From Sporichthyaceae bacterium (GTDB lineage: Bacteria > Actinomycetota > Actinomycetes > Sporichthyales > Sporichthyaceae): DNA of 37,017 bases. A program made the position numbers and the translations under genes. Under the pieces are notes generated by a model that made no database searches, was not told where the DNA came from, and was given only the letters and a program-made list of their open reading frames with translations. Of this stretch, positions 18,826 to 35,000 are shown piece after piece (the stretch's first letter is position 1; each line of letters opens with the position of its first letter). The stretch lies in the NCBI GenBank assembly GCA_036493475.1, contig DASXPS010000058.1, positions 1 through 37,017 of the forward strand, given 5' to 3'.

Positions 18826-18902
18826 TGGTAGCGGGGACAGGATTTGAACCTGTGACCTCTGGGTTATGAGCCCAGCGAGCTACCGAGCTGCTCCACCCCG
18901 CG
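18826..18902 (-). tRNA. Initiator tRNA-fMet (CAT)
   Basis: A 77-base cloverleaf on the minus strand with anticodon CAT (loop CTCATAA) and an encoded 3' CCA. Two features mark the initiator: an unpaired first acceptor position (C1 opposite U72) and three G-C pairs in the anticodon stem next to the loop (GGG with CCC). The T-arm (GGTTCAAATCC) is standard. It is nearly identical to my memory of mycobacterial initiator tRNAs. Confidence 0.95.
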
Positions 18903-31914: not shown

Positions 31915-32088
31915 CTACTCGCCGCTGCGCATCACAGCGATGTCCGCGCGCAGCGCGGCTCGCTCGGCGCGGCGGGCCAACCGCTCTGCCCGACGGATCC
32001 GCCGCGCCGTCCCCAGGCGACGCGAGCGGGAGGCCTCCGCCAGGCGTGTTCGGACGTGTTCTCGCGCCACGTCCTCGATCCCGTACAT
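31915..32088 (-). CDS. Small Arg-rich protein downstream of whiB7 (57 residues)
   Basis: ATG 32088 follows a strong AAGGAG six bases upstream. The 57-residue product begins MYGIEDVAREHVRTRLAEAS and continues as a long basic amphipathic helix with paired arginines (RRIRRAERLARRAERAAL); about 16 residues are Arg. Small proteins of this composition are common in actinobacteria and have no known function. It lies 45 bases after the whiB7 stop with no terminator between, so it is probably co-transcribed with whiB7, and it ends just before the shared terminator. Nucleic acid or ribosome binding would fit the charge but is not shown. Confidence 0.75.
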   Translation of the reverse strand: MYGIEDVAREHVRTRLAEASRSRRLGTARRIRRAERLARRAERAALRADIAVMRSGE

Positions 32089-32133: not shown

Positions 32134-32418
32134 CTAGGCAGCAAGTTCGGTCTTGCGGGGCCTGCCACGCGGCCGCTTGCGCGGTGCGACGATGCCCTGC
32201 ACGAACAACTCCCCGCCCCAAACACCCCACGGCTCGGCGCGGTGAAGCGCGCCGGCCAGGCACGCCGTGCGCACCGGGCAGTTGCGGCACAGTGACTTCG
32301 CGTACTCGACGTCCTCCGGGGACTCCGCGAAGAACAACTCCGCGTCGAAAGCTCGACACGGCAGCCTCTTCGCGACCTCCTCGGCGAGGTCGTCGATCAC
32401 TGCGGCGGTCTGCAACAT
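32134..32418 (-). CDS. whiB7: WhiB7 transcriptional regulator
   Basis: A 94-residue Wbl protein. Cys21, Cys44, Cys47 and Cys53 (LPCRAF, SLCRNCPVRTAC) hold a [4Fe-4S] cluster; EPWGVWGGE contacts the primary sigma factor; and the C-terminal RPRGRPRK is the AT-hook that distinguishes WhiB7. It binds sigma-A on RNA polymerase and activates intrinsic antibiotic-resistance genes and its own promoter when translation is disturbed. ATG 32418 has AAGGGGG upstream; the frame open to 32454 lacks a site. A 400-base leader with an upstream ORF and attenuator precedes it, and uvrD2 lies upstream as in mycobacteria. Confidence 0.95.
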   Translation of the reverse strand: MLQTAAVIDDLAEEVAKRLPCRAFDAELFFAESPEDVEYAKSLCRNCPVRTACLAGALHRAEPWGVWGGELFVQGIVAPRKRPRGRPRKTELAA

Positions 32419-32494
32419 CGGGATGTCACCCCCTTTTCTGGAGATCACTTGCATCGGTGGTGCGTCTGTCGGTAGTTCGCTGGGTTACCGCGGG

Positions 32495-32538
32495 CCCAAA
32501 CAAGAAGGCCGCGGATCCCTTGTCGGGTTCCGCGGCCT
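32495..32538 (-). terminator. Attenuator hairpin in the whiB7 leader
   Basis: On the minus strand AGGCCGCGGAACCC (32538 down to 32525) pairs with GGGATCCGCGGCCT (32519 down to 32506), with 13 of 14 positions paired and a 5-base loop. TTCTTGTTTGGG follows at once. It is an intrinsic terminator placed about 80 bases before the whiB7 start and after the upstream ORF, where it would stop transcription unless prevented. Confidence 0.8.
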
Positions 32539-32563
32539 GGAAGTGGCTCGCCGGTCGTGGTGC

Positions 32564-32758
32564 CTAGACCGGTGGGTCCATTCCGCGGAATCTGGACGGG
32601 AAGACATCGGTGGTGCGCTTGAGCTGCTTGGCCATGACATGCGGGCGCACAGCATCAGTCAGCTGCCAAGCGGCGGCAGCTGCGGGCACCGCAGCGGCCA
32701 TGGGCAAGCGAGCCCCGGCGGTGCCGACGTAGCTGTTGCCAGCGATTGCGTTGATCAC
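32564..32758 (-). CDS. whiB7 upstream ORF (leader peptide, 64 codons)
   Basis: GTG 32758 follows GGGAGGTGA at ideal spacing, the strongest ribosome-binding site nearby. The peptide begins MINAIAGNSYVGTAGARLPM and ends FRGMDPPV; the stop is at 32564-32566, 25 bases before the attenuator stem. An Ala/Pro-rich centre and no recognisable domain suggest the act of translation matters more than the product. Upstream ORFs in whiB7 leaders are known in other actinobacteria. Confidence 0.7.
   Translation of the reverse strand: MINAIAGNSYVGTAGARLPMAAAVPAAAAAWQLTDAVRPHVMAKQLKRTTDVFPSRFRGMDPPV
32580..32591 (-). promoter_or_regulatory. Candidate antiterminator segment in the whiB7 leader
   Basis: The palindrome ATTCCGCGGAAT lies within the last codons of the upstream ORF. 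Its TTCCGCGG can pair over 8 bases with CCGCGGAA in the 5' arm of the attenuator hairpin. Ribosomes translating to the stop would cover it; ribosomes stalled earlier would leave it free. Confidence 0.5.
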
Positions 32759-32821
32759 CTGAACTCACCTCCCTGTTCGCGCGCGCCGCAGCCCCGAGTG
32801 GGCACAGCTGTTAGTGACTGG

Positions 32822-32860
32822 AGAGTACGTTGCCGTACCACGAGCCCGCAACCGATTATT
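32822..32860 (-). promoter_or_regulatory. WhiB7-type promoter of whiB7
   Basis: On the minus strand: AT-rich AATAAT (32855-32860), 3 bases (CGG), -35 TTGCGG (32846-32851), an 18-base spacer and -10 TACTCT (32822-32827). An AT-rich block just 3 bases before the -35 is the recognised target of the WhiB7 AT-hook, so autoactivation is expected. The block directly follows the uvrD2 stop. Confidence 0.75.
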
Positions 32861-32861
32861 C

Positions 32862-35000
32862 CTATGGTCCTTCGGCCTGCTCGCCGGAATTTTCCGCGTC
32901 CGCGGGGTCCAATCCCGCACAGATCGCCAGTACGTCCGCGCCGTAGCGCTCCAATTTTGCGGCGCCGACCCCGGAGATTCGGGCCAGTTCGTTCGGCGCG
33001 GCGGGTTCGGTTTCCGCGATGGCCAGCAGCGTTGCGTCGGTGAACACGCAGTAGGCGGGCAGCGACTGGGCGCGGGCCCGGTCCAATCGCCAACTGCGCA
33101 ATCGGTCCAGCAGTGCCTCATCGACCCGGGACGGGCAATCGGGGCAGCGGCCCAGTTTGCGGGCGGCAGCCTCGATCAGCGGCCGGCCGCACTCGCGGCA
33201 GGTGCGGGTGCGGGCGGATTTGCCGGCTTTCGCCGGTCGGTCCGCCGCTACCGGCCGCGAGCGGCTGGGCCGCAACGGGTCGAGAAAGCGCGAGGCGGGC
33301 CGATTCCCGCGGCCGCCCGGCGAGCGGGACAGCGCCCAGGACAGCTCGAGGTGTTTGCGGGCCCGGGTGAGCCCGACGTAGAGCAGTCGCCGTTCCTCCT
33401 CGATCGCTTCCGGGGTACCCGCGTAGCTGATCGGCACCATGCCCTCGACCAGACCGACCAGGAAAACCGCCTCCCATTCCAGGCCCTTCGCGGCGTGTAG
33501 CGAGGCGAGCGTGACGCCCTCGATCACCGGCACGTGCGAGTCCGCGGCCCGGGTGTCCAGCTCGGCGACCAGCGCGGCGAGGTCCGCGGCCGGGTCGGCG
33601 GCGGCGAGGTCCTCGGCCACCCGGATCAGCGCCGCCAACGACTCGGCCTGCTCCCCCGCGGCACCCGCTGCCCGCGCGCTGCCCGCGGTGAGTCCGGCGT
33701 CGGCGAGCACCGCGCGCACTTGCTCGACCATGCTCAGCTCGAGGTCGTGGCCGGGGTCGGTGCCCACCGCCGCGGCCCGGGCCGCGCCGCGCAGCCGCAG
33801 CAGCGAGGCCTTCACCTCGGGGCGGGCGAAGAACTTCTCCCCGCCGCGCAGCACGAACGGCACCCCGCGCTCGGCCAGGGCCTGCTCATAAGCCAGCGAC
33901 TGGGCGTTGGTGCGGAACAGCACGGCGATCTCGCTGGCCGCCACGCCCGCCTCACGCAGGGCTGCGATGTGAGCGGCCACCGCCTCGGCCTCGGTGGGTT
34001 CGTCCGGATGCTCGGTCAGCGTGGGGGCCGGACCGGCGGGTGATTGGGCCCGCAGCTCGACGCCGGCCCCGGCGCGCAGCACTTGGTTGGCCAGCTCGAC
34101 CACCTGCGGGGTGGACCGGTAGTTACGCACCAGCCGCACGGTGGTGGTGCCGGGCAGCCGGCGGACGAAGGTCTGCAGGTACTCCGGGGTGGCCCCGGCG
34201 AAGGAGTAGATGGTCTGGTTCGGATCCCCGACCACGCACAGCTCGCGGGAGTTCCCGGCCCACACCTCCAACAGGCGTTGCTGCAGCGGGCTCACGTCCT
34301 GGTACTCGTCGACCACCAGGTGCCGGTACTGGCGGCGGACCCGCTCGGCGACGTCGGCGTTCTCGCTGAGCACGCCGACGGTGAGCAGCAGGATGTCCTC
34401 CATGTCGATCAGGCCGCGGCCGGCCTTGACGTCCTCATAACCCGCGTACAGCTCGGCCATGCCCGCCGGGTCGAGGCCGGCCGGGGTGGTGCGGTCGGCC
34501 TTGATCGCGGCGCCGGCGTAATCGGCGGGGGCGACCTGGCTGACCTTGGCCCACTCGATCTCCGCGGCCAGGTCGCGCACGTCGGCCGGGCCGGGGCGCA
34601 GGCGCGCCCGGGCGGCTGCCGCGGCGACCTGTGCGGCCTTGGACGCCTCCAGCCGGGGCAGCTCGCCGCCGATGGCCGTCGGCCAGAAGAACTGCAGCTG
34701 GCGCAGCGCCGCGGAGTGGAACGTGCGGGCCTGCACGCCGTGCGCGCCCAGCGCGCGCAGCCGGGAGCGCAATTCCCCGGCCGCGCGAGCGGTGAACGTC
34801 ACCGCGAGCACGTGCTGCGCCGGGTACGCCCCGACCAGCACCCCGTGCGCGATGCGGTGCGTAATGGCCCGGGTCTTGCCGGTGCCGGCGCCGGCCAGCA
34901 CACACACCGGACCGGTCAGGGCTTCGGCGACCGCACGTTGTTCGGGGTCGAGGGCATCAAGGACGGCAGCGACACGGACGGCGGTGACACTTGAAGACAC
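32862..35000 (-). CDS. uvrD2: UvrD2 superfamily 1A DNA helicase
   Basis: A 712-residue 3'-5' helicase. Walker A is AGAGTGKT (residues 36-43), and further motifs are AVTFTARAAGELRSRL, VVDEYQDVSPLQ (DExx-type box), GDPNQTIYSFAGA, RNYRS, SLHAAKGLEWEAVFLVGL and YVGLTRARKHLELSWA. The C-terminus has a four-Cys zinc motif (CRECGRP and CPDCPS) and an HRDC domain (ISGVGAAKLERYG), the combination that defines mycobacterial UvrD2. It acts in DNA repair and replication in the cytoplasm and is essential in mycobacteria. GTG 35000 with AGGATGGG upstream is preferred over the open frame to 35075. Confidence 0.95.
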   Translation of the reverse strand: MSSSVTAVRVAAVLDALDPEQRAVAEALTGPVCVLAGAGTGKTRAITHRIAHGVLVGAYPAQHVLAVTFTARAAGELRSRLRALGAHGVQARTFHSAALRQLQFFWPTAIGGELPRLEASKAAQVAAAAARARLRPGPADVRDLAAEIEWAKVSQVAPADYAGAAIKADRTTPAGLDPAGMAELYAGYEDVKAGRGLIDMEDILLLTVGVLSENADVAERVRRQYRHLVVDEYQDVSPLQQRLLEVWAGNSRELCVVGDPNQTIYSFAGATPEYLQTFVRRLPGTTTVRLVRNYRSTPQVVELANQVLRAGAGVELRAQSPAGPAPTLTEHPDEPTEAEAVAAHIAALREAGVAASEIAVLFRTNAQSLAYEQALAERGVPFVLRGGEKFFARPEVKASLLRLRGAARAAAVGTDPGHDLELSMVEQVRAVLADAGLTAGSARAAGAAGEQAESLAALIRVAEDLAAADPAADLAALVAELDTRAADSHVPVIEGVTLASLHAAKGLEWEAVFLVGLVEGMVPISYAGTPEAIEEERRLLYVGLTRARKHLELSWALSRSPGGRGNRPASRFLDPLRPSRSRPVAADRPAKAGKSARTRTCRECGRPLIEAAARKLGRCPDCPSRVDEALLDRLRSWRLDRARAQSLPAYCVFTDATLLAIAETEPAAPNELARISGVGAAKLERYGADVLAICAGLDPADAENSGEQAEGP

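Follow-up and report, generated by a model that had tools for sequence, protein, structure and literature searches.

A leader with the parts of a translation-sensing attenuator ahead of whiB7 in a Sporichthyaceae bacterium

What decides whether RNA polymerase reaches whiB7 in a Sporichthyaceae bacterium? The window (the whole stretch of DNA that was analysed, 37,017 nucleotides of contig DASXPS010000058.1) carries this gene on its minus strand, as it does every part of the leader described below. A preliminary description had proposed that an upstream open reading frame (uORF) and an intrinsic terminator in the leader act together, transcription stopping when the leader is translated normally and continuing into whiB7 when translation is disturbed. 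In our analysis, the leader is very probably an attenuator of the whiB7/wblC kind, sensing translation of the uORF. Such attenuators in Streptomyces and Mycobacterium were reportedly the subject of work by Lee, Lee and Roe in 2022, by Burian and Thompson in 2018 and by Dinan in 2014.

The gene itself had been correctly named. Starting from an ATG at 32418, it encodes 94 amino acids (32134–32418, minus strand) with a WhiB domain (PF02467, Whib, 60.5 bits) and an RGRPRK AT-hook that scores at its cut-off, and its orthologues within the order are 77–82% identical. A Shine–Dalgarno sequence, GGGGGTGA, precedes it (32426–32433, minus strand). The neighbour upstream of the leader, uvrD2, lies on the same strand and ends at 32862.

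Immediately after uvrD2 comes a predicted WhiB7-type autoregulated promoter (32822–32860, minus strand), recognised by its pattern in relatives and laid out as AATAATC-GG-TTGCGG-18-TACTCT, with the AT block at 32860–32854, the −35 element at 32851–32846 and the −10 element at 32827–32822. The AT block stands about 3 nt ahead of the −35 element, where a WhiB7-dependent promoter has it; transcription would start near 32815. The same pattern preceded the uORFs of 82 out of 92 lineages, where shuffles would lead one to expect 0.2. A stock scan for terminators and promoters missed both the leader terminator and the leader promoter, presumably because of the internal loop of the former and the non-consensus −35 of the latter.

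Some other features of the window can be recorded here. Just 3′ of whiB7 lies a basic ORF of 57 amino acids with a good Shine–Dalgarno sequence (31915–32088, minus strand), for which Pfam and NCBIfam gave no significant match and tblastn found relatives at whiB7 loci, both within the order and in Streptomyces, Kribbella and Modestobacter. Between this ORF and the end of an ABC1-kinase-like gene on the plus strand there is a terminator-like hairpin (31892–31873, minus strand), probably the shared terminator of convergent genes. Another hairpin with a T-rich tail, also terminator-like (32361–32340, minus strand), falls inside the early whiB7 coding sequence and may be due to chance, two having been found in the region against 0.8 expected. 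A tRNA gene (Rfam RF00005, 63 bits) is at 18902–18829, minus strand.

The uORF was found as first drawn, with a strong ribosome-binding site. It runs from a GTG at 32758 to a TAG at 32566–32564 (32564–32758, minus strand), comprises 64 codons plus the stop, with the predicted peptide (M)INAIAGNSYVGTAGARLPMAAAVPAAAAAWQLTDAVRPHVMAKQLKRTTDVFPSRFRGMDPPV, and is preceded by the Shine–Dalgarno sequence GGGAGGTGA (32765–32773, minus strand). Its GC content by codon position (0.67/0.56/0.77) is coding-like. An open frame by itself is weak evidence, because long ORFs are common at 70% GC; this one goes beyond chance, since it is conserved in all four other genomes of the order. In each of the five Sporichthyales genomes sampled, from two genera, we found the promoter, the Shine–Dalgarno sequence, an open frame ending in ...PPV-stop and the terminator GGCCGCGGAACCC...GGGATCCGCGGCC, the frames of the other four being 73–85 codons long.

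Beyond the order, we collected 170 whiB7 upstream regions (80 from named genomes, 85 from further members of the class and the five of the order), 155 of which had a uORF with its stop 12–34 nt ahead of the terminator, while the search pattern of uORF plus terminator did not recognise the other 15 leaders. A Shine–Dalgarno-like sequence (at least 5/6 matches) preceded the uORF in 131 of the 155. The uORFs ranged from 23 to 190 codons with a median of 76, meaning that the leader peptide of the window, which had been called long, is of unexceptional length.

Among relatives, the frame and the position of the stop are conserved and the peptide sequence is not. Codon periodicity is present in the uORF bodies and disappears over the final 12 codons, as would be expected if those codons serve as RNA. 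The comparison of 93 lineages shows that the parts under selection, as read from sequence, are the stop position, the stop hairpin and the antiterminator, and not the peptide. In the Sporichthyaceae bacterium the uORF is presumably translated.

The terminator had been described as a 13-pair GC hairpin with a T-rich tail, which our folding confirmed. The hairpin AGGCCGCGGAaCCCgacaaGGGaTCCGCGGCCT (32506–32538, minus strand) has ten outer and three inner pairs flanking a single 1x1 internal loop and is followed by TCTTGTTT; the U-rich tail UCUUGUUU occupies 32498–32505 (minus strand), where transcript 3′ ends would be expected. Its folding energy, −28.1 kcal/mol, corresponds to a z of −4.3 against dinucleotide shuffles, none of 200 being as good. 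The hairpin is kept throughout the order and its sequence is near-invariant across Actinomycetes. In the Sporichthyaceae bacterium, transcription presumably terminates there.

Covariation of the hairpin in related genomes had been suggested as a check. Covariation by MAFFT and RNAalifold on the leaders was low, because a plain alignment puts the stop hairpin in the wrong place and because the terminator hardly varies. In place of these programs we used an alignment-free partner-swap test, which compares the pairing energy of a lineage's own segments with that of pairings in which one segment is exchanged between lineages. By this test the terminator gave a clearly positive result (z −13.4, 93 lineages).

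All of the positions in the preliminary description proved accurate, but the promoter had been left out of it, and the antiterminator and the hairpin at the stop codon had been missed. Between the last uORF codons and the terminator loop, the RNA folds into a single long antiterminator hairpin (−33.6 kcal/mol), in which the last ~11 codons of the uORF are paired to the 5′ arm of the terminator. The antiterminator 5′ arm, UUCCGCGG, lies within the uORF 24–17 nt before the stop (32583–32590, minus strand); its partner is CCGCGGAA in the 5′ arm of the terminator. The middle helix, UGGAC (32576–32580, minus strand), pairs across the spacer near 32542–32539, and the apex is formed by a hairpin that encloses the stop codon of the uORF, CCGGUC-UAGGCACCAC-GACCGG (32551–32572, minus strand).

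Taken from the window sequence alone, the antiterminator duplex was not significantly better than its shuffles (p = 0.12), in a test that is weak for single sequences (23 of 65 at p < 0.05); the case for an antiterminator built of uORF sequence and terminator 5′ arm is one that rests on relatives. There, the stop hairpin, which occurs as 51 distinct helices across lineages, gave a partner-swap z of −13.5 in the 93 lineages and −8.4 in the 40 lineages below 66% identity; the corresponding values were −10.6 and −5.6 for the antiterminator, and its lower helix gave −8.6 / −5.0. The p-values of this test assume independent lineages and relatedness makes the z values optimistic, but control segments further up the uORF, which share the same relatedness, gave only 0.2–0.7 when paired with the terminator arm and 0.5 to −1.3 when paired with the spacer in the 40-lineage re-test. 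The comparison thus shows coevolution of the two predicted, competing structures across Actinomycetes.

In the full-length RNA, the most stable fold was the terminator plus the stop hairpin, and the terminator won at equilibrium in every sequence folded, implying that the antiterminator would have to win kinetically, before the 3′ arm of the terminator exists. When the bases that a ribosome at the stop codon would cover were held single-stranded during folding, the terminator formed.

These observations are consistent with the following mechanism. RNA polymerase would initiate from the WhiB7-dependent promoter, and a ribosome would begin translating the uORF. Upon reaching the end of the uORF, the ribosome would sit over its final codons and over the hairpin at the stop codon and so block the antiterminator, whereupon the terminator would fold and transcription would end near 32498–32505. 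If instead the ribosome stalled or lagged in the uORF body, or did not initiate at all, the last ~11 codons would be free to pair with the terminator 5′ arm through the long hairpin that has the stop codon in its apex, and the polymerase would read on into whiB7, whose product would then amplify its own promoter. The proposal that normal translation of the uORF leads to termination, and disturbed translation to read-through, is therefore supported, both by the published whiB7/wblC model and by the finding of a competing antiterminator that coevolves. The analysis shows the predicted parts, how they are spaced and that both competing structures coevolve; induction by ribosome-targeting drugs or by amino-acid shortage in the Sporichthyaceae bacterium is what we infer from them.

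We considered what the uORF might sense. It could mainly monitor one amino acid, namely alanine, a role put forward for whiB7 of mycobacteria, given that alanine makes up 22% of the uORF, including an AAAVPAAAAAW run, and that passages of PMC13236596 and PMC10727445 cite a link between alanine starvation and whiB7 in mycobacteria. Alanine is not clearly enriched, however, given a content of 18.6% in the adjoining uvrD2, 17.8% in the uORFs when pooled and 12–17% in those of the rest of the order; composition gives no clear support to this reading, which we regard as improbable.

A specific arrest peptide of the ErmCL or TnaC type, stalling the ribosome in the presence of a particular drug, would account for a C-terminal W-S/G-P-P-V pattern that recurs in several families, but only these last few residues recur. 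A tblastn search with the uORF peptide gave no convincing match outside its own genome, lengths vary as widely as 23–190 codons, dN/dS is ~0.73 in 27 close pairs, and the inducers known in relatives are diverse, comprising ribosome inhibitors and amino-acid depletion (PMC13393426). An arrest peptide is thus very improbable. Because the peptide is hardly conserved, a generic sensor of ribosome progress is likelier than a drug-specific one, and progress is the likelier sensed quantity than any one drug or amino acid.

Finally, an ordinary terminator insulating whiB7 from read-through of uvrD2, which ends just upstream on the same strand and whose transcription the hairpin alone would stop, with the uORF incidental, is barely tenable given that a WhiB7-type promoter sits between uvrD2 and the hairpin, that 155 of the 170 regions retain the uORF and the spacing from its stop to the terminator, and that coevolution with the terminator arm is seen for uORF codons and not for control segments.

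The leader peptide of the window ends in MDPPV, with the Pro-Pro-Val-stop codons at 32575–32564, and it had been suggested that the Pro-Pro step could slow ribosomes near the switch. The uORF ends in Pro-Pro-X-stop in 36 of 93 lineages, 26 of them with PPV, and this end is mostly absent from the uORFs of mycobacteria and Cellulomonas. Elsewhere in the uORF bodies Pro-Pro is depleted (7 observed, 22.8 expected; 5 and 10.1 in the strictest set), far more so than in control long open frames (116 vs 148).

Part of the PPV conservation is at the RNA level, because CCGGUC pairs with GACCGG, and the proline at −2, inside the CCGG pairing, can be explained by RNA alone. The proline at −3 cannot easily be explained in this way. 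In the 54 lineages with proline at −2, codon −3 was the least paired of the antiterminator arm (~0.4), with C at the first base in 42 and at the second in 40, and the third base free. Moreover, the rare codon CCA was enriched at −3, where it accounted for 22 of 47 proline codons as compared with 10 of 393 in the uORF bodies (p = 7e-17). The unpaired bases at −3 may also have a role as RNA.

The distribution of Pro-Pro hints at a terminal ribosome brake. It might have been selected to hold the ribosome, through a terminal Pro-Pro often containing CCA, on the antiterminator arm for as long as the terminator takes to form, and be excluded elsewhere, avoiding false induction; this proposal is tentative, with the chances leaning somewhat against it. 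The suggested pause thus gains from the concentration of Pro-Pro at −3/−2 and its depletion elsewhere, but the comparative support falls short of proof and RNA pairing accounts for a part of the PPV. If true, the brake would explain a clean 'off' from one ribosome and offer a simple mutational test of attenuator timing. The terminal Pro-Pro pattern is possibly a new detail, and it is the sole part of the leader that merits a specialist's second look.

A model search of the order's genomes found the leader once per genome, at whiB7; besides the palindromic opposite strand at whiB7, other places scored E 0.03 or worse, with no strong further copy. The genome of the Sporichthyaceae bacterium has five WhiB-domain matches, and only whiB7 carries the leader. 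No family of Rfam release 15 matched the leader at the gathering threshold, and a permissive threshold gave chance-level matches only.

Irrespective of the role of the terminal prolines, the leader is a real, well-conserved and ordinary example of a known attenuator. With it, the range of the best-known intrinsic antibiotic-response switch in actinobacteria takes in an order that has received little study. The uORF/terminator/antiterminator model is established for whiB7/wblC in passages of PMC10727445, PMC11550727 and PMC13236596, and is also found in PMC13393426 and PMC4128351; those passages, with parts of PMC13393426, present it for Streptomyces and mycobacteria. In common with these systems, the window has the gene, an autoregulated promoter, a uORF that is led by a Shine–Dalgarno sequence and ends just ahead of an intrinsic terminator, and an antiterminator made from overlapping uORF and terminator sequences. 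Compared part by part, rather than pair by pair with the structure of Lee 2022, it differs only in details of lineage: the GTG start, the 64 codons, the CCGGUC/GACCGG stop hairpin and the terminal MDPPV.

In the ilvB1/ilvBNC leaders of Mycobacterium and Corynebacterium, translation of a uORF likewise picks the terminator or the antiterminator, but those leaders monitor branched-chain amino acids by means of specific codons, whereas no codon is clearly over-represented in the uORF of the window. The ARE-ABCF leaders (tiaA, are5sc, lmrC) share antibiotic-responsive uORF attenuation in actinomycetes. In tiaA and are5sc the uORFs are very short, the ribosome stalls at the start codon and the ribosome binding site is part of the antiterminator, while the leader of the window has a long uORF and carries the antiterminator in its last codons.
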